From the NCBI GenBank assembly GCA_903889245.1, contig CAISWQ010000044.1, forward strand, positions 1 to 64,000: a stretch of 64,000 bases of DNA, given 5' to 3'. A model generated the notes under the pieces. It was not told where the DNA came from. It did no database searches and saw nothing but the letters and a program-made list of their open reading frames with translations. Source of the DNA: an uncultured Lentisphaerota bacterium (GTDB lineage Bacteria > Verrucomicrobiota > Kiritimatiellia > CAIQIC01). The position numbers were made by a program, and so were the translations under genes. Positions 4,586 to 64,000 of the stretch are shown here, in pieces. Position 1 is the first letter of the stretch. Each line of letters opens with the position of its first letter.

Positions 4586-6016
4586 ATGAAACATCTTGCT
4601 CTGTTGATGGTGCTGCTCATGCGGCCGACCGTGTTCGCGTCACCTGCGACGCCCGCGCGGCCGAACATCCTGTTCATCATCGCCGACGATGCCTCGCACT
4701 TCGGCGCGACGGGCTGCACGTGGACCCAGACGCCGCATATTGACCGGCTCGCGCAACACGGCCTCGTCTTCGACAGCGCCTACACGCCGACCGCCAAGTG
4801 CGCGCCGTCACGCGCCGCGATCCTGACCGGGCGCAATCCGTGGCAGCTCGAGGAGGCGGGCAACCATCAGGCGTTTTTCCCGGCGAAGTTCAAGGTCTTC
4901 ACCGAGGCCATGAGCGCGGCCGGCATCAACGTGGGCGCGACCGGCAAGTTCTGGGGGCCGGGCGCAGCGCTGACCGCCGATGGCCAGAAGCGCACGTGGG
5001 GTTTGCAGTCGGCCGGCGGCAAGAAAGGCCAGGGCGACTTCGCCGCGTTCCTCAAGGCGCGCGTCAGGGGCCAGCCGTTCTTCTTCTGGTACGGCAGCCA
5101 CAATCCGCACCGGCCCTACAAGGACGGCGCGGGCCGCGCCGCCGGCAAGAAGACCAGCGACATCAACCGCGTCCCCGGCATGTGGCCAGACAACGACGTG
5201 GTGCGCAGCGATATGCTCGACTACGCCACCGAGGTCGAGGCGTTCGATGCCGAGGTCGGCGAGTGCCTCCGCGCACTGGAGTCGGCGGGCGAGGCCGCGA
5301 ACACGCTTGTCATCGTCACCTCCGATAACGGCATGCCCTTCCCGCGCTCGAAGGGCCACACCTACGACATCGCCAACCACATGCCGTTCGTCGCCTGCTG
5401 GCCGCGCGGTATCGCGCAGCCGGGCACGCGCTGCGCGGAGTTCATCAGCTTCGTGGACCTCGCGCCGACCTTCCTCGAGCTGCTCGGCGTCGCCGCGGAA
5501 AAGGCCGGCCTGGCGCCGCTCACCGGCCGCAGCTTCGCCGACCTGCTGCGCGGGAAGCCGGCGCAGGCGCGGGGGTTCGTCATCCTCGGCCGCGAGCGCA
5601 ACGACGTGCGCGCGCGGCCCGGCACCGAGGCCGGGCTCGGCTATCCCAGCCGCGCCATCCGCGCAGGCCAGCTCTACTACATCCACAACTTCGCGCCCGA
5701 CCGCTGGCCGTGCGGCAACCCCGAACTCGACCTGCTGGATACCGACAAGGGGCCGACGAAAAAGCTGATCGAGGACCGCAAGCCCGGCGACCGCTACTGG
5801 GAATTGAGCTTCGGCAAGCGCCCGGCGGAGGAGCTCTTTGACCTCGCCAGCGACCCCGACTGCCTGAAGAACCTGGCCACCGACGCCGCCTATCGCGACA
5901 AGCTGACGGCGCTGCGCGAAAAACTTTTCGCCGAACTCAAGCGGCAGAACGATCCGCGCATCCTCGGGCAGGGCGACGTCTTTGACCGCTACCCAACGGC
6001 GAAAGGGAAAAAATAA
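4586..6016 (+). CDS. Secreted sulfatase (S1 family)
   Basis: This is a 476-residue type I sulfatase that should cleave sulfate esters from a glycan in the periplasm or outside the cell. It has a signal peptide (MKHLALLMVLLMRPTVFAS), the metal-binding ADD at residues 33-35, and the signature CAPSRAAILTGR with Cys72 as the residue to become formylglycine. It also has the conserved TSDNGMPF metal site. The signature alone does not fix the substrate. AAGGA lies upstream of ATG 4586. The protein ends in a short basic tail (KGKK), a recurring trait here. The gene carries leader motif copy 1 and is followed 51 bp later by the acetylesterase-like gene. Confidence 0.9.
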   Translation: MKHLALLMVLLMRPTVFASPATPARPNILFIIADDASHFGATGCTWTQTPHIDRLAQHGLVFDSAYTPTAKCAPSRAAILTGRNPWQLEEAGNHQAFFPAKFKVFTEAMSAAGINVGATGKFWGPGAALTADGQKRTWGLQSAGGKKGQGDFAAFLKARVRGQPFFFWYGSHNPHRPYKDGAGRAAGKKTSDINRVPGMWPDNDVVRSDMLDYATEVEAFDAEVGECLRALESAGEAANTLVIVTSDNGMPFPRSKGHTYDIANHMPFVACWPRGIAQPGTRCAEFISFVDLAPTFLELLGVAAEKAGLAPLTGRSFADLLRGKPAQARGFVILGRERNDVRARPGTEAGLGYPSRAIRAGQLYYIHNFAPDRWPCGNPELDLLDTDKGPTKKLIEDRKPGDRYWELSFGKRPAEELFDLASDPDCLKNLATDAAYRDKLTALREKLFAELKRQNDPRILGQGDVFDRYPTAKGKK

Positions 6017-6043
6017 TCGGGCGGCGGCGGCGTTGTCTGGCCG
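6008..6043 (+). promoter_or_regulatory. Conserved leader motif, copy 2
   Basis: AAAAAATAATCGGGC is followed by GGCGTTGTCTGGCCG at 6029-6043, ending 24 bp before ATG 6068. The AATAA sits on the stop codon of the upstream sulfatase gene. The inner inverted repeat seen in copies 1 and 3 is not evident here. Confidence 0.6.
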
Positions 6044-6067
6044 GACCCCACAGGAAAGGGAAGCTCA

Positions 6068-7600
6068 ATGTCTAAGTTCATGCTCATGCTCGTTGGCGGG
6101 TTGCTGATTTCGCTGGGCGCGATGGCGGCGGAGTTGAAGGTGGCCGCGGTCTTCGCCGATCACATGGTGCTGCAGCGCGACAAGGCAGTGCCGGTCTGGG
6201 GCTGGGCCGATCCGGGCGCGAGCGTGACCGTGGAGTTTGCCGGCCAGAAGAAGACCGCGACCGCCGACGCGAGCGGCAAGTGGTTCGTGAAGCTCGATCC
6301 GCTGGATGCCTGCGCCGATCCGCGCGAAATGAAGATCGGCACCATCGTCATCCACGATGTGCTCGTCGGCGAGGTCTGGCTTGGCTCCGGCCAGTCGAAC
6401 ATGGCGATGACGGTCAACCGCGCGAAAGATTCTGAGCAGGAGAAGGCAGCCGCCGCGCTGCCGCTTGTCCGCATGTTCAAGGAGGAATCCAGCGCAGCCG
6501 CGACGGCGCAGGCCGACAGCCGCGGCAAGTGGGCGGTGTGTACGCCGGAGTCCGTCGGCGGTTTTTCCGCGACGCTCTTCTTCTTCGGCCGCGAGCTGCA
6601 ACGCGAATTGAAAATTCCGGTGGGCCTGATCAATTCCTCGGTCGGCGGCACGCCGATCGAGTCGTGGATCGCGCCCGAGGCGCAGGCGCAGTCGCCGGAG
6701 CTCAAGGATTTTTTCGCCACGCAGACCAAGGCGGCGGCGAGCGTGGACGAGGCCGCCCTGAAGGCGACCTACGAGAAACAGCTTGCCCGCTGGAAAACGC
6801 TGGCCGCGAAAGCCAAGCAGGAAGGCAAGGCCGCGCCGCGCAAGCCCAAGGACCCGGTGGATACGCGCAAACGCAAGGGCAACGTCGGCGGCCTGTTCAA
6901 CGGCAAGATTGCGCCGCTGATCCCCTACGGGCTGCGCGGCGCGATCTGGTATCAGGGCGAGGCCAACTCGCATCCGGGCAAGGGCCCGTTCTATCAATAC
7001 CAGCTCCCGCTGCTCGTCAGCGACTGGCGCGCGCGCTGGGGCGAGGAATTCCCGTTCGCGTGGGTGCAGCTCCCGAACTTCGCCCGCGGCAGCGGCGGCG
7101 GCTGGCCGCTCGTGCGCGAGGCGATGCTCAAGACGCTGCGCCTGCCCAAGACCGGCATGGCGATCACCATTGATATCGGCGAGGAGAACAACATCCACCC
7201 GGTGAACAAGCAGGAGGTCGGCCGCCGCCTCTCGCTGTGGGCGCTGGGCACCGTCTATGGCCAGAAGGTGCCCGCGATCTCCGGCCCGCTGCCCGCCGGC
7301 CACGACATCCGCGGCAACGAAGTCACCGTGACGTTCAAGCAGACCGCGGGCGGGCTCGTCGCCAAGGATGGCGCGCTGAAAGGCTTCGCCGTCGCGGGCG
7401 CGGACAAGCAGTGGAAGCCCGCGCAGGTGAAGATCGCCGGCGACAAGGTGATCGTCTCCTGTGCCGAGGTCGCCAAGCCCGTCGCTGTCCGTTATGCGTG
7501 GGCCGCCAATCCAGTGTGCAATCTTTTCAACGGCGCCGGCCTGCCCGCCTCGCCGTTCCGCACCGACGACTGGCCCGTGAACGACGCCGAAAAGAAATGA
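6068..7600 (+). CDS. Secreted sialate O-acetylesterase-like carbohydrate esterase
   Basis: This 510-residue SGNH-type esterase should remove acetyl groups from sugars. A signal peptide (MSKFMLMLVGGLLISLGAMA) is followed by a beta-rich N-terminal domain (DHMVLQRDKAVPVWGWADPG, typical of the sialate 9-O-acetylesterase family). The catalytic block GSGQSNM has Ser110 as nucleophile. Later blocks IWYQGEAN and NIHPVNKQEVGRRL provide the oxyanion region and the catalytic His of the family. No sialic acid pathway is present in the window, so deacetylation of plant or algal polysaccharide is as likely as action on sialic acid. A four-unit palindrome array starts 7 bp after its stop. Confidence 0.85.
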   Translation: MSKFMLMLVGGLLISLGAMAAELKVAAVFADHMVLQRDKAVPVWGWADPGASVTVEFAGQKKTATADASGKWFVKLDPLDACADPREMKIGTIVIHDVLVGEVWLGSGQSNMAMTVNRAKDSEQEKAAAALPLVRMFKEESSAAATAQADSRGKWAVCTPESVGGFSATLFFFGRELQRELKIPVGLINSSVGGTPIESWIAPEAQAQSPELKDFFATQTKAAASVDEAALKATYEKQLARWKTLAAKAKQEGKAAPRKPKDPVDTRKRKGNVGGLFNGKIAPLIPYGLRGAIWYQGEANSHPGKGPFYQYQLPLLVSDWRARWGEEFPFAWVQLPNFARGSGGGWPLVREAMLKTLRLPKTGMAITIDIGEENNIHPVNKQEVGRRLSLWALGTVYGQKVPAISGPLPAGHDIRGNEVTVTFKQTAGGLVAKDGALKGFAVAGADKQWKPAQVKIAGDKVIVSCAEVAKPVAVRYAWAANPVCNLFNGAGLPASPFRTDDWPVNDAEKK

Positions 7601-7720: not shown

Positions 7721-7734
7721 CAAGAAAGGTGACT

Positions 7735-9333
7735 ATGAAAAGAGTGCTGGTTCTGACGTGCGCGGCCCTGTGGGCGGCGCTGGCAACGGGGTCCGCGGCG
7801 GAGGCGCCGCGGCCGAACATCATCTATGTGATGGCCGACGACCTCGGCTGGGGCGACTTTTCGTGCTACTTCGCGCAGGGCAAGGTGCAGACGCCAAATA
7901 TCGACAAGCTGGCGCGCACGGGCATGCGCTTCACTGATGCGCACACGCCGGCCGCGCTCTGCGCGCCGACGCGCTACGCGGTGGCGACCGGTAACTATAC
8001 GTGGCGCGGGCCGCTGCCGGGCGGAACGTGGAGCTGGAATCAGGGGTCCGCTTTCCGGCCGGGGCAGAAAACCGTCGGGCATCTGTTGCAGGAGGCGGGC
8101 TACCGCACCGGCCTGTTCGGCAAGCTGCACTTCGGCGGCGAGTTCGAGAAGAACGCGGCGGGCAAGGCGGACTTCACCAAGCCGATGAAGGTTGGGCCGC
8201 GCGAGTGGGGCTTCACCTATTCCTATGTGCTGCTCGGCGGACACCAGGCGCCACCGTACTGCTTCATCGAAAACAACCGCGTGGATGGCGATGGCGCGAA
8301 GGTGACGCAGCTCGCCGCGGGGCCGCTCAATGGCGGCGCGATTCCCGTGGCCGGGCCGGGCCTGCCGGACTGGGACAGCCGCCAGGTGGGCCAGAAGCTG
8401 GTCGAGAAGGTGATCGCGTTCATGGACGCCGACAAGGACAAGCCGTTCTACGTCCATCTTTCCACCGATGGCGCGCACGGGCCCTACACGCCGCCGGATA
8501 CGCTGCTCGGCGAGCCGGTCAAGGGCGTCACCAAGATGTCGGCGAAGACCGACATGGATTACGAGGTGGATGTCGTCGTCGGCAAGCTCGTCGAGGCGCT
8601 GACCAAGCGCGGGCTGCTGGAGAAGACGCTGATCATTGTCACCAGCGATAACGGCGGCATCCCGGCCGACCGCGAGAAGTTCGGGCACGACGCCGTCGGC
8701 GGGCTGCGCGGCTCGAAGTCCTATATCTGGGAAGGCGGCCACCGCGTGCCGTTCCTCGCGATGTGGAAGGGACACGTGCCCGCGGGCGAGGTCCGCAACC
8801 AGGTCATCGGCACGCACGACATCGTGCCGACGTTCGTCGAGCTCGCCGGTGGCAAGTTCGCTGCCGACCAGATGCTCGATAGCGTCAGCCTCGCACCCGT
8901 GCTGCTCGGCCTGCGCGGCGACGACAAGCCCGTCCGCGCAACGCTGCTGATCCAGAGCAGCCCGGGCCGTGACGCGTTCACCGAGGGGATCGACAAGGAC
9001 GGGAAGTCCATGGCCGAGAAGCCGAAGGCTGGTGGCCAGAAGATGACCGCCGAGGGACGCAAGAAAGCCAAGAACAAGGCGTTCAACCAGCTGGCGCGCA
9101 AGGGCGAGAAATCCGGCAGCGATGGCATGGCGCACGCGCTGCGCGAGGGGCCGTGGAAGCTCGTCTTCGATATCGAGCACGACAAGGCCGTGGCGCTCTA
9201 TAACCTCGCCGACGACCTGCGCGAGCAGAAGAACCTCATCGCCGACGAGGCGCAGAAGGACCGCATCACGCGCATGGACAAAATCTATCGCGACATCCGC
9301 AGCTCCCAGCGCAGCACGCCCGTGCCACCATAA
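7735..9333 (+). CDS. Secreted sulfatase (S1 family)
   Basis: A type I sulfatase of 532 residues from ATG 7735; an in-frame GTG at 7729 is rejected because it lies in the AAAGG ribosome site. It has a signal peptide, ADD at about 35-37, and CAPTR with Cys76 as the formylglycine precursor. Thr replaces the usual Ser, which the CxPxR rule tolerates. FGKLHFGGEF stands where FGKWHLG is usual. TSDNGG and a KSYIWEGGHRVPF segment complete the active site. Near the C-terminus is a basic insert (KMTAEGRKKAKNKAF) not normal for the family. The gene follows directly after the 31-bp palindrome array. Substrate not assignable. Confidence 0.88.
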   Translation: MKRVLVLTCAALWAALATGSAAEAPRPNIIYVMADDLGWGDFSCYFAQGKVQTPNIDKLARTGMRFTDAHTPAALCAPTRYAVATGNYTWRGPLPGGTWSWNQGSAFRPGQKTVGHLLQEAGYRTGLFGKLHFGGEFEKNAAGKADFTKPMKVGPREWGFTYSYVLLGGHQAPPYCFIENNRVDGDGAKVTQLAAGPLNGGAIPVAGPGLPDWDSRQVGQKLVEKVIAFMDADKDKPFYVHLSTDGAHGPYTPPDTLLGEPVKGVTKMSAKTDMDYEVDVVVGKLVEALTKRGLLEKTLIIVTSDNGGIPADREKFGHDAVGGLRGSKSYIWEGGHRVPFLAMWKGHVPAGEVRNQVIGTHDIVPTFVELAGGKFAADQMLDSVSLAPVLLGLRGDDKPVRATLLIQSSPGRDAFTEGIDKDGKSMAEKPKAGGQKMTAEGRKKAKNKAFNQLARKGEKSGSDGMAHALREGPWKLVFDIEHDKAVALYNLADDLREQKNLIADEAQKDRITRMDKIYRDIRSSQRSTPVPP

Positions 9334-9508: not shown

Positions 9509-12256
9509 ATGAAAAAGCATCTCGGTTGGTTGCTGGGATTGTTGTTGGCGTTGCCGGCGGCGCTGGCCGCGCCGCCTAATCTCATCATCCTGCTCACCGA
9601 TGACCAGGGCTACGGCGAGCTTTCGTGTCACGGCAATCCTGTGTTGCAGACGCCGCACCTGGATCGGCTTCACGCCGAGAGCGTCCGCTTCTCCGATTTC
9701 CACGTCGCGCCGATGTGTACACCGACGCGCGGGCAGTTGATGACGGGCGTGGACGCGCTCCGTAACGGCGCGATGAACGTCAGCAGCGGGCGCACGCTGC
9801 TGCGGCGCGAACTGCCGACGCTGCCGCAGCTTTTCGCCGGCGCGGGTTACCGGACGGGGCTGTTCGGCAAGTGGCACCTGGGCGACGCCTGCCCCTACCG
9901 GCCCGAGGACCGCGGCTTCCACGAGGCGGTCTGGTTCCCTTCGTCGCACATCGGGTCGGCGTCCGATGTCTGGAACAACGATTACTTCGACGACACCTAT
10001 GTTCACAACGGCCGCCGTCAGGCCTACACCGGCTACACGACGGACGTTTTTTTTCGCGAAGCCATCCGCTGGATGCAGGGCGAGGCCACCGCCGGCCGGC
10101 CGTTTCTTTGCTACCTCGCGACCGCCGCGCCGCACGGTCCGCACTATGTGCCCGCGCCGGCGCGCGAAGCCATGGCCGCGCGCGTCGCCCAGGCCGGCCT
10201 GACCAAGCTCGCGCCCGCGGTGCGCGAGCAGTTGACCCGTTACCTCGCGATGATCGCCAACGTGGACGAGAACTTCGGCCGGCTGGAAACGTTCCTGAGC
10301 GAGGCGCAGTTGCGCGATAACACCATCGTCGTGTTCCTCACCGATAACGGCAGCACGTTCGGCCCGCGCTATTTCAACGCCGGCATGAAGGGCGGCAAGG
10401 TCACGCTCTGGGAGGGCGGCCATCGCGTGCCGTGTTTTGTCCGCTGGCCGGCGGGCGGGCTGCGCGCGCCGGGCGATGTGGACGGGCTCGCCTGCGTGCA
10501 GGACCTGCTGCCGACGCTGCTCGAGCTGTGCGGCGTGGCCGCGCCGGCGGACGCGCGCTTCGATGGCATCAGTCTCGCGCCCGCGCTGCGCGGCACGGCG
10601 AAGCTGCCGGCGGAGCGGATGCTGGTGATCAACTACAGCCGGATGCCCATCGGCCTCAACCGGCCGGCGGCCGACGCTCCCTCTGTGCCGCGACGCGAGG
10701 GCGCGGCGGTGCTGTGGCAGCGCTGGCGGTTGCTGGAAGACCGCGAGCTCTATGATCTTGCGACCGATCCGCTGCAGGAGCGCAACGTCATTGCCGCGCA
10801 GCCCGCAATCGCCGCCAACATGCGCGCCCATCTCGACCGCTGGTGGGCCGGCGTCAAGGAGGCCTGCCAGGAATTTCAGCCGTCGGTCATCGGCAGCGCC
10901 GCGCAGAATCCCGTGCTGCTCACCGCGTGCGAGTGGGCCGATGTGTTCATTGACCAGCAGGCGCAGATACGGCGCGGCGAGCGCAAGCAGGGCTACTGGC
11001 ATCTCGAAGTGGCACAGCCCGGCCGCTACACCTTCGAACTGCGCCGTTTCCCGTCGGAGTCCGGGCTGCGCCTGGGTGACGCCGCTCCGGAGACCAAGGT
11101 GACCGATGGTACGCTGGCGGCCGGGCCCGCCTGGCCGGTGGCCAAGGCCCGACTGAAGATCGGCGCGCAACTGCTGGAGCAGGCCGTCGCGCCGGAGGCG
11201 GACGCGGCGCGGTTCACGGTCACGCTGCCCGCCGGCCGGACGCAACTGCAAACCTGGTTTCTCGACAAGGAAGGTGGCGAAATCTGCGGCGCCTACCACG
11301 TGCTCGCGCATCGCCTGCCCAGCGTCGCGCCGCCGGTGAAGTTGATCCTCGAGACCGACATGTCGGGCGACTGCGATGACGCCGGCGCGCTCGCGCTGCT
11401 GCATGCGCTGGCCGACCGCGGCGAATGCGAGCTGCTGGCCGTGCTGACCAATCGCAAGGACAAGAGCAACGCCTCGGCCGCCGCGGTGGATGCCATCAAC
11501 ACCTGGTACGGCCGGCCGGCGATCCCGCTGGGCACCGACAAGATCGGCCCGACCGCGCTGCAACGCACCAGCCTCTACACCACCGCGCTGCGCGACGCCT
11601 TTCCGAATGACATCGGACCCGACGACCGCGCGCCGGATGCGCTGGCGGTGTACCGGCGCGTGCTGGCAGCGCAGCCGGATGGCAGCGTGACGCTTTGCAG
11701 CGTCGGCGCGCTCTCGAACCTGGCGGTGCTGTGGCGGCACGCGCCGGAATTGGTGCGCGCCAAGGTGCGGCGGCTGGTGGTGATGGGCGGCGAATTTCCG
11801 CGCGGAACCAAACCGGAGGTGAACATCCTGACGCACAAGGAAGCCGCCCAGATCGTCGCCGCGGAGTGGCCCGGTGAAATCATCTGGCACGGTTTCGAGG
11901 TTGGCAACGTGCTCATCACCGGCGAGCGCCTGAAGCAGACGCCGCGCAACAATCCCGTCCGCCGCGCCTACGAACTGCGGCGTCACATGAACCGCCCGTC
12001 CATCGAGGGCGGCCAGCCGAGCTGGGATCAGGCCGCGGCGCTGTTCGCCGTGCGCGGCGCGGAAGCGGCCTGCTGGGAAGTCATCGCCGGCGGCCGGGTC
12101 GGCGTGGATACCGCCGGCGTCACCACGTGGCAGCCGGACAGCACCGCGCAGCACGCCTACGTGAAAATCGCCGGCGATCCGCGGCGGCTGGCCGCGGTGA
12201 TCGAGAACCTGATGATCACGCCGCCGGAGCGCCCAGCCGATAGAGACACACCATGA
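9509..12256 (+). CDS. Secreted sulfatase fused to a nucleoside hydrolase-like domain
   Basis: The 915-residue protein has a signal peptide, then a type I sulfatase with TDD at residues 30-32, CTPTRGQLMTG (formylglycine precursor Cys70), FGKWHLGD and LTDNGS. A beta-rich linker (about 440-600) follows. From about residue 610 it turns into an inosine-uridine nucleoside hydrolase fold: LILETDMSGDCDDAGALALL matches the N-terminal calcium-binding aspartate motif, VVMGGEF and NILTHKEAAQIV match later family blocks, and PSWDQAAAL carries the late Asp. The first Asp of the usual DTD is Glu here (Glu615). There is no stop or frameshift between the parts. Its stop overlaps the next start by 4 bp. The fused domain might act on a glycosidic bond of the desulfated product. 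Confidence 0.85.
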   Translation: MKKHLGWLLGLLLALPAALAAPPNLIILLTDDQGYGELSCHGNPVLQTPHLDRLHAESVRFSDFHVAPMCTPTRGQLMTGVDALRNGAMNVSSGRTLLRRELPTLPQLFAGAGYRTGLFGKWHLGDACPYRPEDRGFHEAVWFPSSHIGSASDVWNNDYFDDTYVHNGRRQAYTGYTTDVFFREAIRWMQGEATAGRPFLCYLATAAPHGPHYVPAPAREAMAARVAQAGLTKLAPAVREQLTRYLAMIANVDENFGRLETFLSEAQLRDNTIVVFLTDNGSTFGPRYFNAGMKGGKVTLWEGGHRVPCFVRWPAGGLRAPGDVDGLACVQDLLPTLLELCGVAAPADARFDGISLAPALRGTAKLPAERMLVINYSRMPIGLNRPAADAPSVPRREGAAVLWQRWRLLEDRELYDLATDPLQERNVIAAQPAIAANMRAHLDRWWAGVKEACQEFQPSVIGSAAQNPVLLTACEWADVFIDQQAQIRRGERKQGYWHLEVAQPGRYTFELRRFPSESGLRLGDAAPETKVTDGTLAAGPAWPVAKARLKIGAQLLEQAVAPEADAARFTVTLPAGRTQLQTWFLDKEGGEICGAYHVLAHRLPSVAPPVKLILETDMSGDCDDAGALALLHALADRGECELLAVLTNRKDKSNASAAAVDAINTWYGRPAIPLGTDKIGPTALQRTSLYTTALRDAFPNDIGPDDRAPDALAVYRRVLAAQPDGSVTLCSVGALSNLAVLWRHAPELVRAKVRRLVVMGGEFPRGTKPEVNILTHKEAAQIVAAEWPGEIIWHGFEVGNVLITGERLKQTPRNNPVRRAYELRRHMNRPSIEGGQPSWDQAAALFAVRGAEAACWEVIAGGRVGVDTAGVTTWQPDSTAQHAYVKIAGDPRRLAAVIENLMITPPERPADRDTP

Positions 12257-13599
12257 AAAAAATCCTCCTGCTCCTCGCCGCGCTCTGGTTCGCACCGTGC
12301 GGTTTGTGCGCAGCCGACGCCGCAAAGCCCAATATCCTGCTCTTCTATGCCGACGATCTCGGCTACGGTGAGCTGGGCTGCTACGGCTTCAAGGAAGTGC
12401 CGACGCCCAACATTGATTCCATCGCCGCCAACGGCCTGCGGTTCACCAGCGGCTACGTTACGGCGCCGCTGTGCTCGCCCTCGCGCGCGGGGTTGATGAC
12501 CGGCCGCTACCAGCAGCGCTTCGGCCACGAGAACAACAACATGACGCCCGCCGGCGGCCTGCCGCCGACGGAGACGATCTTCGCGCAGCGGATGAAGGCG
12601 CTCGGGTACGCGACGGGCATCGTCGGCAAGTGGCATCTGGGCAAGGAACCCGAATTGCTGCCGGTGAAGCGCGGGTTCGATGACTACTTTGGCGTCTTCG
12701 GCAATCCGGGTTCCTATTTCCAGCCCAAGGGCTTCATCAATTCGCGCGTCTCGCTCGCGTCGCAGGAGGCGCCGAAGGATTTCTACACCACCGACGCGTT
12801 CGCGGCGTTCGCCGCCGGCTGGATCGCGGAGCACAAGGCTGCGCCGTGGTTCCTCTATATGCCCTTCAACGCCGTCCATACGCCGCACGAGGCGTCGGAA
12901 AAATATCTCCAGCGCTTCACCCACATCGCCGAGCCGCGCCGCCGGCAGTTCGATGGGATGCTCTCGGCGCTGGATGACGCCGTCGGCGTCGTGCTCGCGA
13001 AACTGCGCGCGCTGAAACTGGAAGAGAACACGCTCATCTTTTTCATCAGCGACAACGGCGCGCCGGGCGGACGTGGCGGCAACGGCGTGCTGCGCGGCGG
13101 CAAGCATACATGCTGGGAGGGCGGCATGCGCTTGCCGTGGATGATGCAATGGAAAGGCCGGCTACCCGCGGGTAAGGTGGAGGACCGCGCGGTCGTCCAG
13201 CTCGATGTGCTGCCGACCTGCGTGGCGGCGGCGGTTGGCACGGTGGACCCGGCGTGGAAGCTCGACGGCCTGAACCTGCTGCCCTATCTGGCTGATGGGA
13301 ACAAGGAACGCCCGCACCCGACGCTCTGCTGGCGCATTGACGGCATGTGGGCGATCCGGCACGGCGATCTGAAACTCGTCGTCGGTGATCCGGGCCATGC
13401 GCCCGAGCTGTTCAATCTCGCCGCCGACCTCGGCGAGAAGAGCGACCTCGCCGCGAGCCAGCCCGACAAGGTGAAGGAACTCAAGGCGCTCTGGAATCAG
13501 TGGAACGCGCAGCTCGCCGCGCCCTCCGCGCCCAAGGACAAATCCGAAGCCAAGGCGAAGAAAAAACAGCGCCGCCAGACGCCGCGTCAGTCAACCTGA
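12253..13599 (+). CDS. Secreted sulfatase (S1 family) with basic C-terminal tail
   Basis: A 448-residue type I sulfatase with a signal peptide (MKKILLLLAALWFAPCGLCA), ADD at 33-35, CSPSRAGLMTGRYQQRFG with Cys74 as the formylglycine precursor, VGKWHLG and ISDNGAPGG. The TGRYQQRFG form is common in arylsulfatase A-like enzymes of this group. The last 24 residues are very rich in Lys, Arg and Ala (EAKAKKKQRRQ), which is not part of the fold. The start overlaps the fusion gene stop by ATGA, so the two are translationally coupled. The iduronate sulfatase-like gene follows 11 bp downstream. Confidence 0.92.
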   Translation: MKKILLLLAALWFAPCGLCAADAAKPNILLFYADDLGYGELGCYGFKEVPTPNIDSIAANGLRFTSGYVTAPLCSPSRAGLMTGRYQQRFGHENNNMTPAGGLPPTETIFAQRMKALGYATGIVGKWHLGKEPELLPVKRGFDDYFGVFGNPGSYFQPKGFINSRVSLASQEAPKDFYTTDAFAAFAAGWIAEHKAAPWFLYMPFNAVHTPHEASEKYLQRFTHIAEPRRRQFDGMLSALDDAVGVVLAKLRALKLEENTLIFFISDNGAPGGRGGNGVLRGGKHTCWEGGMRLPWMMQWKGRLPAGKVEDRAVVQLDVLPTCVAAAVGTVDPAWKLDGLNLLPYLADGNKERPHPTLCWRIDGMWAIRHGDLKLVVGDPGHAPELFNLAADLGEKSDLAASQPDKVKELKALWNQWNAQLAAPSAPKDKSEAKAKKKQRRQTPRQST

Positions 13600-13609
13600 A
13601 GGAGCCGCA

Positions 13610-15103
13610 ATGAAACCATCCACCCTTGTGTCCGGTCTGCTTGTTTTTCTCTGTGGCCTCGTGGCCGCGCCCGCGGCGGAAACCCCCGCGCCCAAGAAGC
13701 CCAACGTCCTCTTTATCGCGATTGATGACCTGCGCGACTGGGTGGGCTTTCTCGGCAACCAGCAGGTGAAGACGCCGAACCTCGACAAGCTGGCCGCGCG
13801 CGGCGTCTCCTTTACGCGCAGCTTCTGCGCCTCGCCGTGCTGCAATCCCTCCCGGTCGGCGCTGCTGACCGGCCTGCGGCCGGGGACAAGTGGCGTCTAT
13901 AACAACAACGACGACTGGCGCAAGATCGTGCCGGAGGGCACGGTGACGATCCCGCAGCACTTCAAGAACAACGGCTACTATGTGGCGGGCGCGGGAAAAA
14001 TTTTCCACGGCGGCCTGCTCCGGCTTACCGACTGGGACGCCTACCTGACCGGCGGCGGCGAGGGCGCCGAGGACGATGCCGAGACCGCCACCAAGCCCCG
14101 CGGCAAAAAGCTCAAGGGTGCGGGCCAGGTCAAGGAGGGCTGGGACGGCGTCGGGGGCATCCGCTTTGGCCCGCTCGACTGCGAGGACGCGGACATGGCG
14201 GACTACCGCTCGGTCAGCTACATCCTCAAGAAGCTCGCCCAGCCGCAGGAGAAGCCGTTCTTCTTCGCGTGCGGGATGCACAAGCCGCACATGCCCTGGT
14301 CGGTGCCGAAGAAATATTACGCGCTCTATCCGCTCGACAAGATCGAGCTGCCGAAAATTCAGGAGAACGATCTTGCCGATATCCCGCCCGCCGGTGTCGC
14401 GATGGCCAAGCCCGATGGCGACCACGCCGCCATGCTCAAGTCCGGCCGCTGGAAGGAGGCCGTGCAGGAATATCTCGCGACCATCACCTTCTGCGACGCA
14501 ATGATCGGCCGCCTGATCGAGGGCTTCGACAAGAGCGCCTACACGAGCAACACCATCATCTGCCTCTGGAGCGACCACGGTTGGCACCTCGGCGAGAAGC
14601 AGCACTGGCGCAAGTTCGCGCTCTGGGAGGAGGCGACGCGCGCGCCCTACCTGTGGATCGTCCCCGGCCTGACCAAGCCTCGCGGCGTCTGCCAGCGGCC
14701 GGTGGACTACATGCAGATCTATCCCACGCTCTGCGACCTCACCGGCCTGCCGCGCCCGAAGCACATCGAGGGCGAAAGTATCCGCGCCTTGCTGGAAAAT
14801 CCCGCCGCGAAGTGGGACAAGCCCGCGGTCACCACGTGGCTGTTCAGCAACCACGCCGTGCGCAACGAGGAGTGGCGCTACATCCGCTACGCCAACGGCG
14901 AGGAAGAGCTCTATCACAACCTGATGGACCCGCGCGAATGGACCAACCTTGCCAAGCACCCCGAATATGCCGGGCAGAAAGCCGCGCTCGCCAAGTGGCT
15001 GCCGCAGACCAACCTCGCCCCGCCCGATGGCGGCAAGAAGAACAAGGACCCCGAGCAGAAAGCCCGCAAGCAGCAAAAGCGCGAGAAGCAGAAGACGACG
15101 TGA
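13610..15103 (+). CDS. Secreted iduronate-2-sulfatase-like sulfatase
   Basis: A 497-residue sulfatase of the iduronate-2-sulfatase type: IAIDDLRDWVGFLG, then CCNPSRSALLTGLRPGTSG with Cys78 as the formylglycine precursor, PFFFACGMHKPHMPW, and WSDHGWHLGEKQHW. These blocks separate this branch from the arylsulfatase A-like enzymes around it. A signal peptide covers about residues 1-22. The C-terminus is a long basic tail (EQKARKQQKREKQKTT). The true substrate may be any 2-sulfated uronic acid or another sugar. GGAG precedes ATG 13610. It is the last gene of the first glycan block. Confidence 0.9.
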   Translation: MKPSTLVSGLLVFLCGLVAAPAAETPAPKKPNVLFIAIDDLRDWVGFLGNQQVKTPNLDKLAARGVSFTRSFCASPCCNPSRSALLTGLRPGTSGVYNNNDDWRKIVPEGTVTIPQHFKNNGYYVAGAGKIFHGGLLRLTDWDAYLTGGGEGAEDDAETATKPRGKKLKGAGQVKEGWDGVGGIRFGPLDCEDADMADYRSVSYILKKLAQPQEKPFFFACGMHKPHMPWSVPKKYYALYPLDKIELPKIQENDLADIPPAGVAMAKPDGDHAAMLKSGRWKEAVQEYLATITFCDAMIGRLIEGFDKSAYTSNTIICLWSDHGWHLGEKQHWRKFALWEEATRAPYLWIVPGLTKPRGVCQRPVDYMQIYPTLCDLTGLPRPKHIEGESIRALLENPAAKWDKPAVTTWLFSNHAVRNEEWRYIRYANGEEELYHNLMDPREWTNLAKHPEYAGQKAALAKWLPQTNLAPPDGGKKNKDPEQKARKQQKREKQKTT

Positions 15104-46421: not shown

Positions 46422-47777
46422 TCAGGATTTCTTTTTGGCTTTGGCCTTGGCTTTCTCCACCCAGGGCCAGTTGGGGTCGTCCACGCGCGCCTGCTTCAGC
46501 AGCGCGGCGGCCTTGGCGACCAGTGCGGGCTGGCTGGCGGCAAGGTCGGTCTTCTCGGCGCCATCCTTGGCGAGGTCAAAAAGTTCGACCGCCGCGTGCG
46601 GTCCGTTGCGCACGGCCTTCCACTGGCCGAAACGCACCGCCTGAATCGGCCGGCCTTCGTGCAGCTCCCAGTAGAAATAATCACGCTGCGGGGCCGGGCC
46701 ACCCTTGAGGTAGGCGACGAGCGAGAGGCCGTCGGTCTTGCACGTCGCGGGAATGTGCGCGCCGGCCAGCTCGGCGGCGGTCGGCAGGAAATCCCAGAAG
46801 GCCCACGGCTCGTCGCTGACGCGGCCGGCGGGGACCACGCCGGGCCAGCGGGCGAGCGCGGCCTGGCGCAAGCCGCCCTCATAAAGCCCGCGCTTGAAGC
46901 CGCGCAGCTTGCCGCCCATGGACTGGTCGAAGAAACTGCCCAGTTCCGATTTCTCGCTCAACGAGGAACCGTTGTCGCCGGAGAACATCACAAGTGTCTT
47001 CTCGTCGAGCTTCAACTCCTTGAGCAGGTTCAGCAAGCGGCCGACGTCGGAATCGAGCCGGCTGACCATCGCGGCGTAGGTCTTCTGCTGCTGCGTCCAC
47101 GGCTTGTCCTTGTAGGGGCCGAGGTCATCAATCTCGTATTTCCCGTGCGGCAGCGTGATCGCGTAGAACAGGAAAAACGGCCCGTCCTGGTGCTGGCGCA
47201 CCCAACCGAGCACGTCCTTCTCGATCAGATCCTGCGCGTAGGTTTTGCCGTCGAGGTCGAGCTGCTGGTCGTCGTTGAACAGGTGGGTCGGGAAATAGCT
47301 GTGCGCGTGGCGCTGGCAGTTGTAGCCGAAGAAATGGTCGAAGCCTTTCTTCAGCGGGCTGCCGGTGGTGTTGAACATGCCCATCCCCCACTTACCCATG
47401 CAGGCGGTCGCGTAGCCGGCCGACTTGAGGATTTGCGCGACGGTGACGGTCTCCGCCGGCAGCGGCATCTGGCCCGCGCCGCGCGCGATCTCGCGGTTGG
47501 CGCGCACCGGCGAATGGCCCATGTGCTGCCCGATCATCAGCGACGTGCGCGAGGGCGCGCAGACCGTGGTGCCGCAATACGCCTGGTTATAGCGCGTGCC
47601 CTCGGCGGCCATCCGGTCGAGGTGGGGCGTCTGGATCAGCTTCTGCCCGTAGCAGCCGAGGTCGCCCTGCGCGAGATCGTCGGCCAGGATGAAGATGATA
47701 TTCGGCTTTCCGGCAGCGCAGAGCGGACCGGACGAGCAGAGCAGCACCGCGGCGATCAGCAGCCTGATTTTTTTCAT
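46422..47777 (-). CDS. Secreted sulfatase (S1 family)
   Basis: A 451-residue type I sulfatase with a signal peptide ([21 protein letters not shown]), ADD at residues 32-34, and [20 protein letters not shown] with Cys73 as the formylglycine precursor. MGKWGMG stands where GKWHLG is usual, so the His of that motif is replaced by Gly. [10 protein letters not shown] is the later metal site. The QHMGH segment with SPVRAN is found in a subset of sulfatases in this group. It ends in a basic tail ([10 protein letters not shown]). The next gene upstream in the operon ends 33 bp before its start codon. Confidence 0.88.
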
Positions 47778-47809
47778 TGTGAGCCTCTGGTTGGTGAGTG
47801 TCCCCGTCT

Positions 47810-49771
47810 TCAGAAATTCCAGCGCCGCGGCTGGCCGACGCCCTTAAGCTCGATCCAGTCCACCTCCACCGGCTGCTGGTGCGCCGGCAGATAAAGCCGC
47901 AGGATGCCGAGCGGGCCTTGCGCCGGCAGGTCCACGGTGATGGTCTGCCAGTCGCCGGGCGCGAGCGTGAACGGCACCGGCGTCGCCTCGGTCTGCTTCT
48001 GGGCCGGCGCGAGCCACGTCACCTTGCCCTTGCCGCCGCCGCGCACGCGCAACGTGAGTACCGCCGGGCCGGCGGTCCCCGCGCTGACGCCGAGGAACGG
48101 CGCATCGCCGCTGCCCCGCAGGGTGACGATGCCATCCTTCACCGTGGCCTGGCAGTTACGCGCCTTCCAGCCTTGCAGCTTCGGATCGCTTTCGTCCTTG
48201 GCCGGCGCCTTGGCTTTCGCCTTGGCCTTGGGCCTCTGCTTGCCCTCGTCCTCCGGCCGGTACTTGGCGGGATCGAACGCCGGGTTCGGGACGGGCACGA
48301 CGGCCTTGGTCTCGGCGAGGAACTTCTCGATGAGTGCATCGAGTTCCTTCACGCGCTCCGGTTCCTGGGCGGCGAGGTTGTTCTTTTCGCCCATGTCGTC
48401 GCGCAGGTTGAAGAGCAGATAACGGTGCGCGCCTTTTTCGCCGACGTGGAAAATGCGGATGAGCTTCCAATCGTCGCGTTCGATGGCGACGCCGGGCGGC
48501 AGCCAGTCGGGCACGCCGGGATCGTGCGGGAAGAACTGGCAGATGGCCTTGCCGGCGAGCGCCTCGCCCTTCAGCGCGGGCAGGATGCTGTGACCATCGA
48601 AGCGCTGGCCGGGCACGGGCTGCAGCCCGAGTACGTCGAGCAGCGTGGGATAATAGTCCTCGCTCTGGATCAGCGCGTCGCTGCGCGAGCCGGGCGGCGT
48701 GACGCCCGGCAGGACGACGACGCCCGGCACGCGCGTGCCGCCCTCGAACAGCGTGGCCTTGCCGCCGCGCAGCGGCCGGTTGCTGGTGGGCGGGACGCCG
48801 TCCACCTCGTTATACATGTTGCCGCCGTTATCGGCGGTGAAGACGATGAGCGTGCGGTCGGCGAGCTTCAGCCGGTCGAGCGTGTCGAGCAGCGTGCCGA
48901 CGGCGTCATCCATGCTCTCGACCATCGCGGCATAGGTGGGGCAGCGCTGCGCGTCGGCGGGATTGACGCGCGCGCGATGCTTCTCGATCAGCGCCCGCTT
49001 CGCATCGAACGGCGCGTGGACGCTGAACATCCAGTAGTTCAGATAGAACGGGCGGTCCTTGTGCTGCTCCATCCATTTGACCGCTTCCTGCGCCATGCGA
49101 TCCTCGATGTGCTGGTTCGGCTCGCCGGGATCGGCATCGAAGTCCGGGAACTTCCACGGCGCCACGTAGCTGCCCGCCGGGCCGGGGCCGGGCCAGTGCG
49201 GTAGATCCACATCGAAGCCCTGCTGCAGCGGCGAGTAGGGCTCCGCGCCCAGATGCCATTTGCCGAAGTGCGCCGTCGCATAGCCCGCGTCCTTAAGCGT
49301 CTCCGCCAGCGTGCGGTACTCGGTTTTCAGCCGCGTCACCGAGACCGGCATGATCGTCTTCTTGTCCGCCGGCGCGCCCTTGGCCAGCTCCGCCGCGAGG
49401 ATCACCTTCGCCTCGTGGCAGCCGGGCACGGTGATGCCCGTGCGCGCCGGACTCAAGCCCGTCATGATGGCCGAGCGCGTCGGCGAGCAGAGCGGGCTGG
49501 CCGAATGGGCGCGCGTAAAGACCATGCCGCGTCGGGCGAGCCGGTCGAGGTTCGGCGTCCGGTAGAACTGCGTGTGGCCATAGAGCGTCGTATCCGCCCA
49601 GCCAAGATCGTCGGCGAGGATGAAGACGACGTTGAGCTTCTTGTTTTCCAAGGGTTGGAAACTGGAGGGTGCGGTTTTTCCAGCCGAGCCTTGCGAGACG
49701 GGCAGCCCTTGGCTGCCAACCATTGGAAAAAGTCCCAGCGACAGGCAGACGGCGAGAAGAGCTTTGTTCAT
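47810..49771 (-). CDS. Secreted sulfatase with C-terminal beta-sandwich-like domain
   Basis: The 653-residue protein has a signal peptide ([20 protein letters not shown]), then a repeat-derived linker ([10 protein letters not shown]) before [19 protein letters not shown]. The signature [11 protein letters not shown] holds Cys95, the formylglycine precursor. HFGKWHLG and [12 protein letters not shown] complete the active site. After a Lys/Ala-rich linker ([15 protein letters not shown]) comes an extra domain (about 550-653) of beta strands ([38 protein letters not shown]), perhaps a carbohydrate-binding module. ATG 49771 overlaps the stop of the rhamnosidase gene by 4 bp. The pair is coupled, implying action on the same glycan. 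Confidence 0.88.
49643..49732. repeat. CCAAGG palindrome units inside a sulfatase signal-peptide region
   Basis: A good core CCAAGGGTTGG is centred at 49653, a decayed one near 49685 and CCAACCATTGG at 49721. Between them GGCAGCC-CTT-GGCTGCC (49701-49717) forms a hairpin. All are within the first 45 codons of the sulfatase, between the signal peptide and the catalytic domain. Confidence 0.7.
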
Positions 49772-52698
49772 GGGTTCACCTCGAAGCGGTAGGTGCCGGC
49801 CTCGACGGCGAGCACGGCGCAGCCTTTTTCCATGCGCAGGAATTTCACGCCTTCCGCTTTCACGAGCGGCCGGCCGCCCTCGGTGACCTGCCCGGCGTCG
49901 GCGGCGGGGACAAAAACCGTCGCGGTCGTGTTCGCGGGCACGGTCGCGCGTAGCGCGAAGCGGCCGCCCTTCAGGCTCCACTCGCTGACGATGCGGCCGT
50001 GGATGCAGTCGTAGTGCGCCTTGACCCAGTGAATCGGCGCGCGTTCGGGATTGCTGCCGGGCGCGGGCGGACGCGGGGCGATGATGATTTTGTCGTAGCC
50101 GGGGCCGTCGCTCTGGATGCCGGCGAGCGTGCCGAGCATCCATTCGCAGACCGCGCCGAACGAATAGTGTGCGAACGAATTCATCTCCGCGTTCTGCTTG
50201 CCGTTCTGGCCCTGGAAGCCGTGCTCCTTCGTGTAGCTGTCCCAGCGTTCCCAGATGGTCGTCGCGCCCTGCTCAACCTCATAGCCCCACGACGGGAATT
50301 TGCGGCTCTGGAAATGTTTCACCGCCAGGTCGTGTTCGCCGACGCTCGTCAGCACCGGCAGCAGCGGGCGCGTGCCGAGGAAGCCGGTGGTCATGCCGGA
50401 TTTTTCCGCGGTCTCGCCGGCGCGCAACTGGTTGGCGAGCATCTTCCCGGACTGCGCGCGCAGCGCGGCGGGGATCAGGTCCATAAACAGCGCCAGCGCG
50501 TAGGCCGTCTGCGTGTCCACCGTCAGCGAGCCATCGGGCTTCACATACTTGGTGTTGAACGCGCGCTTGATGTTGCCGAGCAGCTCGCGATAGGCCGCGG
50601 CCTCGGCGTCCTTGTGTACGGCGCCGGCCATCTCCGCCATGAGCTGCGCCGAGTAGGCGAAATAGACGGTGTCCACAAATTCCAGCGGCGTCTTCGTGCC
50701 GAACGACAGCCAGTCGCCCCAGTCGTTGCCGTGATTGATGCCGAGGAAATTCCGGCTCGTGGCCTTGCGCCACTCCATGAACTTCACCATCGTGGGCCAG
50801 CAGCGCTCGATGACGCGCGTGTCGCCGTAGGCCTGCCACACGGTCCACGGGCAGATCACGCCGGCATCGCACCACGCGGTGCCGAAATCCCAGCCGTGCT
50901 GGAACGGGTACGGCGCGTAGCCGGGGAACACTCCGCTGGGCTGCTGGCTCTCCATCAGCTCGCGCAGCCACTTGGTGTAGAACGCCGCGACGTCGGCGTT
51001 ATAGGTGGCACAGCGGACGTAGATCTGCGCATCGCCGGTCCAGCCGAAACGCTCGTCGCGCTGCGGACAGTCCGTCGGCAGGTCAATGAAGTTCGCGCGC
51101 TGCGTCCAGACGACGTTCTTGAACAGCCGGTTCGCCACCGGATCGGAGCACTCGAAGCCGCTGGTGAAAGGCGTATCGCTGTGCAGCACGAGCCCGGTGA
51201 TCGCGTCCCTGCCGGGCGTGCCGGGGAAGCCGGTGACCTCGACATATTGGAAGCCGTGGAACGTGAAGCGCGCCACGAATTCCTCGGTGCCGCCGCCGCG
51301 GCAGATATAGTGATCGGTCGCGCGCGCCTTGCGGTAGTTCTCGTTCATCAGCCGGCCGTCGGGATAGACCATCTCGCCGTAGCGCAGTTGAATCGTCGTG
51401 CCCGCCGGCGCTTTCACTTTCAGCCGCACGACGCCGGCGAAATTCTGGCCGAGGTTGAAGACAAAAACGCCGTTCGTCGGCGAGGTGATCGCCACCGGCT
51501 TGATTTCCTCGATGACGCGGACCGGCACGCCGGGGAACGCCTCTAGCTTCGGCGGCCGCTGGAAGCCGAGGTCCACGGGCCGGCCCTTGATTTCGATTTT
51601 CTCGCCCGGCTGCGGCGCGTTCGCCCACTCATAGAACGTCGCCGGCACGCGCCCGTTTTCGGCGGCGAGGATGGCCGGTTCCCAGGCCGCATCGTCGAAG
51701 CCCGGCTTCGACCAGTTCTTCATCTCCTTCCGCGCGTCATAGCATTCGCCCATCAGGAAATCGCCCTCGCGCACGGGGCCCTCGCCGGTGACCTTCCACG
51801 ACTTGTCGGTCGCCACGCTCTCGCGCGAGCCATCCGTGTATTCGATTTCCAGTTGCGCCATCAGCGCCGGCGTCCTGCCGTAGGTCGCGCGCCCGATCTT
51901 TTCCGTGCCGATGCCGGTCAGCAGGCCGAAGCCGATGTAGCCCGCATACCAGCCATCCGCCACCCACGCGCCGAGCGCATTGGCGCCGGACTGCACCAGC
52001 GGCGTGACGTCATAGGTCCGGTAGTAGGCGCGCTGGCGGTAGTCCGTCCAGCCCGGCGCGAACCATTCCGCGCCGACGCGCCGGCCGTTGAGCTGCAGCT
52101 CATAGATGCCGAGCGCGGTCGCGTAGAGCGTCGCGCGCTTGACCGGCTTGGCGGCGGCAAACTCCTTGCGGTACTGCCGCGCCGGCGGCAGATGGAGTTG
52201 CTTGGTGTCCTTCCACACCGGCGACGTGTCGCGGAAGCTGATGTAGCCGGCCTGCCAGTCGTTCTCCTGGAGCAGTCCCATCGTCCACGCGGCCGGTTGG
52301 CTCCACACCGCCGCGCCCGCCGCGTCCCACGCGCAGACTTTCCAGTGGCAAGGCTGGCGCGAGGCGAGCGGCCGGCCCGCGTAGGCGATGTTGATCGTCG
52401 CGCCACCTGCCACTTTCCCGCTATCCCAGAGATCGCCCGTGTTGCGCGCGAGCAGTGCGGCGCTCGAAGCGACCAGAATCTGATAGGCGGACTGCCGCGC
52501 ACCGCGCGCCGCCGACTGGATTTGCCAGCTCAACCGCGGCCGGGGCTCATCCAAGCCCAGCGGATTGACCAGATACTCGCAGCGCAACTCCACCGGCGCG
52601 CAACCCGCCGAGGAGGAGAACGTGGCGCACCCCAGCGGCCACGCGCCGCAGAGCGCGAGGAGGGGAACGGCGGACCAGAGAACGTTGCTCTTTTTCAT
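49768..52698 (-). CDS. Secreted alpha-L-rhamnosidase (GH78-like)
   Basis: The 976-residue protein is a glycoside hydrolase 78-type enzyme that releases terminal alpha-L-rhamnose. It has an N-terminal signal with a possible lipid-attached Cys24 (WPLGC), then beta domains ([40 protein letters not shown]), and the (alpha/alpha)6 barrel with the family block [18 protein letters not shown]. The conserved acidic residues of that block are the catalytic candidates. The C-terminal part holds [20 protein letters not shown]. The gene is coupled to the sulfatase by a 4-bp overlap, pointing to sulfated, rhamnose-containing polysaccharide such as ulvan-type chains; this is inference. Confidence 0.93.
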
Positions 52699-58753: not shown

Positions 58754-60163
58754 TCACTTCTTCGTGGTCGCTTCGAGTTGGTTTGGGACGGGCGTGAGCG
58801 TGGCGCGATGGCGCGCGACGGCCGCCGTAATCTGCGCGATGACGTCGGGATGATCGGCGGCGACGTTGAAGGATTCACCGGGGTCGGCTTCGAGGTCGAA
58901 CAGCAGCGGCGGCTCGTGGGTCTCCGGCTTGGGCGCGCCATAGGCGGCCTGCGTGATGAAGTGCGCCTTCCACTGGCCGCGCCGCGCCGCAAACAGCCGT
59001 GTGCCGCGGTAATAGCAGAACACGTCGCGCTCGACGCTGCCCGCGGCGGTCAACAGCGGCGTGATGTCGCGGCCATCCAGCGGCCGGTCGCTGGGCGGCT
59101 GCGCGCCGGCCCACGTGGCGCAGGTGGTGAACAGGTCCATCGTCACGGCCAGCTCGCGGCAGGTGCCGCCGGCAGGAATTTTACCGGGCATCCACGCGAT
59201 GCCGGGCACGCGCATCCCGCCTTCCCACGTCGAGCCTTTGCCATCGCGCAACAGGCCCGCCGAGCCGCCCGCCAGCCCCCGGATCAGCCACGGCCCGTTG
59301 TCGCTCGTGAAGAAGACGAACGTGTTCCGGTCGCGGCCCGTCTCGCGCAACGTTTCGAGCACGCGGCCGACGCTCCAGTCAATTTCCTCGACCACGTCGC
59401 CGTAACGGCCGCGCGGACTTTTGCCACGGAACTGTTCCGAGGCGAAGATGGGCGTGTGCGGGAACGTGTGCGGGAAGTAGAGGAAAAACGGGCCGTCCTT
59501 TTGCTCGCGGATGAACCGCACGGCCTGCTCGGTATAGCGGCGCGTGAGCATGGTCTGGTCGGCGGGCTGCTCGATCAACTTCTCGCCCTCAAAGAGCGGC
59601 GCGTTGAACCACTTCGCTTCAGGATTGGTGCTGCTGTGGACCTCGCGCGGGATGCCGGGCACGGGGTCCATGTCGTTGGAGTGCGGCAGGCCGAAGCAGA
59701 AGTCGAAACCGTGATGGCGCGGATGGCCGGCGGGGTTGTTCGCCCAGACGCCGAGGTGCCACTTGCCGATGCAGCCGGTCGCGTAGCCGCGCTGCTTGAG
59801 CAGCTCCGCGAGAGTGATCTCGCCCTCGGGCAGGTGGCCGGTGGAGACGTTGCGGAGTACGCGGAACTGGTCGTGCGCCATGCCGCTACGGACCGGATAG
59901 CGCCCCGTCAGCAGCGCCGCGCGGCTCGGCGTGCAGACCTCCGCCGCCGAGTAGAAGCTGGTGAAGCGCAGCCCCTCCCGCGCCATGCGGTCGAGGTGCG
60001 GCGTGCGGATGGTCGGATGACCATAGCAGCCGAGGTCGCCGTAGCCGAGGTCGTCGGCGAGGATGATGATGATGTTCGGTTTCTGCGGCGGCGCGCCCGC
60101 GGCCGGCCACGCGGCCAGCGGCGCAAGCAGCAACGCGGTGAGGATGGCGCAGGTGCGTTTCAT
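58754..60163 (-). CDS. Secreted sulfatase (S1 family)
   Basis: A 469-residue type I sulfatase: signal peptide ([23 protein letters not shown]), ADD at residues 36-38, [19 protein letters not shown] with Cys77 as the formylglycine precursor, IGKWHLG, and TSDNGPWLI. The [10 protein letters not shown] motif is that of arylsulfatase A-like enzymes. The upstream in-frame residues (from 60241) are palindrome-coded shadow and are rejected. Its stop is followed without a gap by the alpha/beta hydrolase gene. A palindrome array of two units separates it from the next sulfatase gene upstream. Confidence 0.92.
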
Positions 60164-60188
60164 GTGGTGGCTTTCCTTTCCTGATTCA

Positions 60189-60238
60189 GTTCCAAGGCTT
60201 GGAAAAACTGGTGGGGCCGTCTTCCAATCCTTGGACTT
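60189..60238. repeat. CCAAGG palindrome array, two units
   Basis: Cores CCAAGGCTTGG (centre 60197) and CCAATCCTTGG (centre 60229) are 32 bp apart. They lie in the 74-bp gap between two minus-strand sulfatase genes and reach the stop codon of the upstream one. Confidence 0.9.
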
Positions 60239-61806: not shown

Positions 61807-61837
61807 GGTCACTCTGTCGCGCAGGGATTGCGGCGGT

Positions 61838-63286: not shown

Positions 63287-64000
63287 TTCGCTTCTCCCTG
63301 TGCTTTCTTGGCTTTCTTCTGTTTTCTCTGCTTCTTCTCGCCGTCGCCCTGCTTGGGCACCTTGGTCGCGCCGCCGGCGGGGTTGAGCTTGTCGAGCACG
63401 CCCTGCAACTGCGCGCGCGCGGCTTTGGCCTCCGCGCTCTGCGTGTCGGCGGGAACCGGCTTCTGCGCGAACGGCGTGTCGCTCATGTCGAAAAGTTCGC
63501 CGCTCTCGGTCAGCTTCCAACCTTCGTTGCGGACATACCACTTCGCGCCGAGTTGGACGTAAATCCACTCGCGCGGCGTGCCTTTCTCCCCGCGCAACTG
63601 CGGCGCGAAGCTCTGGCTGTCGAACGTCAGGTTCTCCGGCAGCTTCACGCCGGCGAGTTCGGTGAACGTCGCGTAGAAATCGCTAAGGCCCACGAGGTCC
63701 TTGAGCACGCGCCCGGCGGGCGTGGTGCCTTTCCAGTTCGCGATGAGCGGCACGCGGCTGCCGCCTTCGTTGACCTGGCTCTTGCGGCCGTCCACCGGGC
63801 GGCCGTTGATGGTGCCGATCGGCACGCTGCCATTGTCGCCGGTGAACACGATGAGCGTCTGCTCGCGCAGGTTCAGCTCGTCGAGCGCGGCGACGAGCTT
63901 GCCGACGGTCTTGTCGAGGTAGGCGACGTTGTCGGCGTAGATCGTGTTGTCGCCCCTGTCTTTGCCTTTCACCTTCCGCTCGCCGCCCTCCTTGGTGTCG
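63283..64000 (-). CDS. Sulfatase, C-terminal part (cut by the window edge)
   Basis: The open frame runs in from beyond position 64000, so only the C-terminal 238 residues are seen. FTGDNGSVPIG is the metal site, and GGSRVPLIANWKG, FYATFTELAGV and GELFDMSDTPF are usual late sulfatase blocks. The formylglycine signature lies outside the window. The tail is very basic (KKQRKQKKAKKAQ). The stop overlaps the next sulfatase start by 4 bp. Confidence 0.85.
   Translation of the reverse strand, partial: DTKEGGERKVKGKDRGDNTIYADNVAYLDKTVGKLVAALDELNLREQTLIVFTGDNGSVPIGTINGRPVDGRKSQVNEGGSRVPLIANWKGTTPAGRVLKDLVGLSDFYATFTELAGVKLPENLTFDSQSFAPQLRGEKGTPREWIYVQLGAKWYVRNEGWKLTESGELFDMSDTPFAQKPVPADTQSAEAKAARAQLQGVLDKLNPAGGATKVPKQGDGEKKQRKQKKAKKAQGEAK

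Follow-up and report, generated by a model that had tools for sequence, protein, structure and literature searches.

In the window, by which is meant the whole stretch of 64,000 nucleotides analyzed here, a single gene encodes one exported protein that bears both a sulfatase and a nucleoside-hydrolase (NH) domain. The fusion was found in seven genomes of two phyla, Verrucomicrobiota and Planctomycetota: the window genome and six further ones. The best explanation, which is regarded here as somewhat probable, is an exported enzyme with two activities that obtains ribose from sulfated ribosides.

Domains and active sites of the fusion protein

The fusion gene at 9509-12256 (+) is a single open frame of 915 aa, in whose translation a clear N-terminal signal sequence can be read. 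The domain order is S1 sulfatase, unannotated middle domain and NH domain. The gene, its parts and its neighbors are listed below, with the basis of each assignment in brackets.

4586..6016, +, sulfatase gene with a relative in the ribose operon L063 (Pfam)
6068..7600, +, carbohydrate acetylesterase-like gene, SASA (PF03629)
7729..9333, +, upstream sulfatase gene (ORF, Pfam)
9509..12256, +, sulfatase - middle domain - nucleoside hydrolase fusion gene, 915 aa (single frame; Pfam; fusion homologues)
9509..9568, +, signal sequence MKKHLGWLLGLLLALPAALA, residues 1-20 (translation)
9575..10537, +, S1 sulfatase domain, residues 23-343 (PF00884; fold match 9hh3)
9716..9730, +, formylglycine motif CTPTR, residues 70-74 (motif scan; kept by every relative checked)
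10859..11323, +, unannotated middle domain, residues about 451-605 (Pfam-blank; common to unfused sulfatases; model)
11342..12118, +, nucleoside hydrolase domain, residues 612-870 by Pfam (PF01156; model; 2mas match)
11351..11392, +, calcium motif ETDMSGDCDDAGAL, residues 615-628, with D617, D621, D623 and D624 (alignment of 65 rows)
11816..11824, +, ribose-binding EVN, with E770 and N772 (alignment of 65 rows)
12023..12028, +, W839-D840, in the place of His241-Asp242 of Crithidia NH (D840 invariant, W839 variable)
12253..13599, +, next sulfatase gene, whose start overlaps the stop of the fusion gene (ATGA) (ORF, Pfam)
13610..15103, +, sulfatase gene with relatives in the ribose operons L091, L092 and L094 (Pfam)

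In the Pfam search, PF00884 (Sulfatase) matched residues 23-343 (E 2.8e-53, 181.6 bits) and PF01156 (IU_nuc_hydro) matched residues 612-870 (E 8.1e-20, 72.1 bits against a curated cut-off of 34.2). The sequence-only reading had described an N-terminal sulfatase and a C-terminal NH domain with a calcium motif, and this description holds, with ETDMSGDCDDAGAL at residues 615-628. It is refined here by the Glu that stands as first motif residue in the window and by a further domain at residues about 451-605, a region where no Pfam model matched in the search of the fusion protein. This middle domain is also present on unfused relatives of the fusion's sulfatase, and it is mostly beta in the AlphaFold2 model, where model confidence is uneven. 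Across the phylum, the same domain (window 10859-11323) marks a sulfatase group present in 35 of 387 genomes.

The sulfatase domain keeps the TDDQG, CTPTR, GKWH, TDNG and GGK..WEGGHR motifs. The profile match, the CxPxR motif and the DD and DN metal residues of S1 sulfatases are all found in the fusion. A phosphodiesterase-like member of the sulfatase fold is not favored because TDD and TDNG are motifs of the sulfatase type. Whether the window genome can mature such an enzyme was settled by TIGR03942, which detected a sulfatase-maturating enzyme at 490 bits against a cut-off of 349; a generic radical SAM search was uninformative on this point. Fold searches against PDB libraries matched the sulfatase to the S1_19 sulfatase 9hh3 (Z 36.1). 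Compared with the S1 sulfatases of carrageenan and host glycans (S1_19 9hh3, S1_16 9fo1), the fold and the catalytic motifs are shared, whereas the fusion adds the middle and NH domains, is about 26% identical in structural alignment and has relatives linked to ribose genes.

Because the sulfatase part filled the match list in full-length fold searches, the NH domain was modeled separately, with a mean pLDDT of 93.9. Its best structural match was 2mas, the Crithidia NH with a transition-state inhibitor (Z 30.0, rmsd 2.9, 281 residues), and all top matches were nucleoside or riboside hydrolases. Conservation was assessed over 65 aligned rows, in all of which D617, D621, D623, D624 and D840 are invariant; the calcium ligands, whose loss the sequence-only reading had named as a counter-indication, are kept. 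D617, D623 and D624 are the equivalents of the Asp cluster of Crithidia NH in the 1mas alignment, and D840, which lies beyond the end of that alignment, was set at Asp242 by motif and fold. The equivalents of Asn168 (N772) and Glu166 (E770) are kept in 63 and 57 of the 65 rows. D621 is an extra invariant Asp that accompanies a two-residue insertion in the NH motif. At the leaving-group histidine position W, H, Y, A or F occurs across the NH family, and the window has W839. Residue 615 is Asp in 64 rows and Glu in the window only, which, as read from the alignment, is a caveat for the window copy of the NH domain. Judged from their motifs and alignments, the catalytic residues of both fusion domains are intact.

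Likeness to the nucleoside hydrolase family (PF01156; Crithidia IU-NH 1mas/2mas, E. coli RihA/B/C) extends to the whole-domain fold, the Asp cluster and the Asn168 and Asp242 equivalents. The fusion NH differs from this family in the two-residue insertion with its extra Asp, in the Trp at His241, in an identity of only about 20%, and in being exported and fused.

Recurrence of the fusion

A collection with one genome per species was scanned with a nine-row NH alignment as query, which gave 80 NH loci, and the sulfatase, middle domain, NH and transporter were mapped on these loci. G048, from another family of the same class, has a near full-length homologue with 63% identity, and a third fusion is located on contig VGWF01000070 of G135, a MAG labeled Lentisphaerae. 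Further fusions of sulfatase, middle domain and NH were found at L071 (Pirellulaceae), L072 (Planctomycetaceae), L079 (Verrucomicrobia; with an incomplete beginning) and L085 (Verrucomicrobiia). The search for the same domain pair elsewhere, which had been proposed as a check, thus shows that the fusion is not unique to this assembly. An assembly artefact is excluded by the near full-length homologue in G048 and by the six further genomes with the fusion.

Six of the fusion sulfatases form one clade (98/97 support), and that of L079 falls outside, at an unresolved fork. Apart from that of L085, the fused NH domains group with stand-alone NH genes in a 13-row clade (SH-aLRT 100). In L085, the sulfatase is joined to a more distant NH paralogue, and a close relative of the window NH is the gene just upstream. 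The join was therefore either made repeatedly or lost in places.

Inside the 13-row clade, NH is fused to BNR_2 sialidase-like modules at L073:6183-8921 and L080:6354-8963. In the wider NH subfamily, the fusion partners are GH2, GH36-like, GH28+GH43, GH106 and RGL11 modules, as well as GH43, apiosidase-like, sialidase-like and lectin-like ones. Loci L052, L053, L055, L058, L060, L133 and L137 carry NH on GH2, GH36-like, GH28+GH43, GH106, RGL11, apiosidase-like and GH43 modules.

Ribose genes at the loci of relatives and in the window genome

Within the stretch examined around each, a ribose gene was found in 29 of the 80 NH loci and in none of 20 control loci, which are other S1 sulfatases of the same class (Fisher p 0.0006), and the fusion-type sulfatase group was found at 8 of 29 close NH loci versus 0 of 51 distant ones (p 0.00015); both p values are rough, as related loci are counted as independent and flanks vary with contig ends. 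Ribokinase occurs in 20 of the 80 loci. The fusion genes of G048 and G135 come immediately after RbsB-RbsA-RbsC type genes and share their strand. The same sulfatase clade and NH also occur as neighboring separate genes (L063, L064, L092, L094, L095 and L160). Among these, L092, L094 and L095 (the last from Alienimonas chondri LzC2) combine transporter genes with NH and the sulfatase; L064 has the order LacI, permease, ribokinase, sulfatase, NH-NH; L063 contains ribokinase, a second sulfatase, the fusion-type sulfatase, an NH-like gene and NH-NH; and L160 contains RbsB-A-C, ribokinase, sulfatase and NH. Some ribose operons, L084 and L098 for example, contain NH but no sulfatase. Against the ribokinase model TIGR02152 (cut-off 299.65), L084 scored 351 bits, and L091 and L098 scored 285 and 273, both just below. 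The permease at NH loci matches PF07168 (Ureide_permease) and weakly, just under the cut-off, the sugar transport family PF06800.

When 20 loci were chosen by the middle domain alone, ribose genes were seen at L160 only, so the tie to ribose is one of a sulfatase subclade rather than of the group as a whole. At L071 and L072, whose NH domains are closest among the fusions, no ribose genes were found in the stretch examined.

Two other arrangements were observed. A possible transporter-NH fusion is seen at L059:7218-9374 (-), where an uninterrupted frame of 719 aa spans permease and NH beside ribokinase. In the congener G002, an unfused sulfatase homologue (L015:14051-15553, -) lies beside a gene of DUF2961, a family that presumably includes furanosidases.

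In the window, the neighbors of the fusion gene are four more sulfatases and one acetylesterase, and no ribose genes lie beside it. The ATGA overlap at 12253 suggests translational coupling of the fusion gene and the next sulfatase gene. The sulfatases at 4586 and 13610 have relatives in some ribose operons; such sulfatases are common and the tie is weak. Additional sulfatase gene clusters are located at 46425-50272 and 58757-63999 (-). No RbsC match was found in the window genome, an absence that by itself is no proof. Its ribokinase (373 bits, contig C117) lies beside a permease of the type seen at NH loci, and this pair is on another contig than the fusion. Downstream of this ribokinase, an FAD-linked oxidase and a GDSL lipase-like protein are encoded (L155:7230-8849 and 5535-7178, -).

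Proposed function and alternative explanations

In the mechanism proposed here, the N-terminal formylglycine sulfatase would take a sulfate ester off a ribose-containing compound, and the C-terminal NH domain would use a calcium-bound water to hydrolyze the ribofuranosyl bond and free ribose, which would then be imported and phosphorylated by ribokinase. The linked ribose transporter and ribokinase genes of relatives suggest ribose as the product. Fusion and adjacency suggest that one molecule is the substrate of both domains; desulfation would presumably precede ribosidic cleavage.

The sequence-only reading had considered purine salvage a poor fit. With the signal sequence and the relatives' tie to ribose uptake, cytoplasmic purine salvage is indeed unlikely. 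The same reading had proposed that a sulfated molecule is cleaved at an N- or O-glycosidic bond; this is probably correct and is narrowed to a riboside by the ribose operons of relatives, with a base and a glycan hydroxyl both kept as leaving groups. What it had missed was this operon context, which makes ribose the likely sugar set free. Several observations count against ribose scavenging from sulfated ribosides: the window has no adjoining ribose genes and its genome no RbsC match, L071 and L072 showed no ribose genes in the stretch examined, only 1 of the 20 middle-domain loci has them, and residue 615 is Glu in the window only. Nor did a natural sulfated riboside that fits this habitat range emerge from the analysis, and the literature search on sulfated nucleosides found nothing useful.

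The fusions of NH to glycan-degrading modules keep an O-riboside reading alive. The NH domain may be an O-ribofuranosidase, or another furanosidase, that trims furanose from a sulfated polysaccharide after the sulfatase exposes the linkage, which would make the protein a glycan degrader and not a nucleosidase. This is a possibility held tentatively. The modules joined to the NH subfamily (GH2, GH36-like, GH28+GH43, GH106, RGL11, GH43, apiosidase-like and sialidase-like) are consistent with it, as are the setting among four more sulfatases and an acetylesterase and the leaving-group His position, occupied by W in the window and by differing residues across the family. The furanose pocket residues, however, match those of ribonucleoside hydrolases, the top structural matches consist entirely of nucleoside or riboside hydrolases, and the literature searched shows no O-glycoside activity of such enzymes. 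A broader and equally doubtful proposal is that the NH domain founds an unrecognized glycoside hydrolase family whose targets would be the O-ribofuranosyl or related furanosyl linkages of sulfated or pectin-like glycans, the same module having been joined for that purpose to sulfatase, GH2, GH28/43, GH36-like, GH106, RGL11 and sialidase-like enzymes.

The NH domain could also be an ordinary exported NH for ribose scavenging, with the sulfatase acting on an unrelated glycan and the fusion serving only co-expression or co-secretion. NH in ribose operons without sulfatase (L084, L098) and a sulfatase group that is mostly without ribose genes would agree with this, but the same sulfatase clade adjoins a separate NH gene in several genomes, the sulfatase is joined to two different NH paralogues, and its group occurs at 8 of 29 close against 0 of 51 distant NH loci, which makes such independence unlikely. 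That the domain is a catalytically dead carbohydrate-binding module anchoring the sulfatase appears very improbable: the Glu at 615, seen in the window only, and the loss of the usual His before D840 would suit it, but D617, D621, D623, D624 and D840 are invariant in 65/65 rows, N772 is kept in 63/65, and the model keeps the NH fold.

If ribose scavenging from sulfated ribosides is correct, the fusion predicts a route for using these compounds, for which no described catabolic pathway was found. Two enzyme families are tied together by gene fusion and operon linkage, and the NH module is reused across glycan-degrading enzymes of Verrucomicrobiota and Planctomycetota, where annotation would otherwise say nucleoside salvage. 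No paper joining sulfatase and nucleoside hydrolase as in the fusion was found in the literature search, which also gave nothing useful for nucleoside hydrolase with rhamnogalacturonan or for ribosidases of glycans. Export of an NH has a parallel in Pseudomonas aeruginosa Nuh, which cleaves adenosine in the periplasm, so that ribose is released from a nucleoside outside the cytoplasm; neither a sulfatase nor a fusion is described for it there (PMC5522865).

In Bacteroidales, loci were found that contain NH of the window's subfamily together with ribokinase and permease. The rus system of Bacteroides thetaiotaomicron, associated with Glowacki 2020, reportedly scavenges ribose, with ribose as the kept product, and the Bacteroidales triad appears to resemble it. 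In contrast to rus, the sulfatase and the RbsBAC-type transporter belong to loci of Verrucomicrobiota and Planctomycetota. NH, ribokinase and ribose transporter are united in one operon in relatives, and the ribokinase and permease of the window genome are on another contig.
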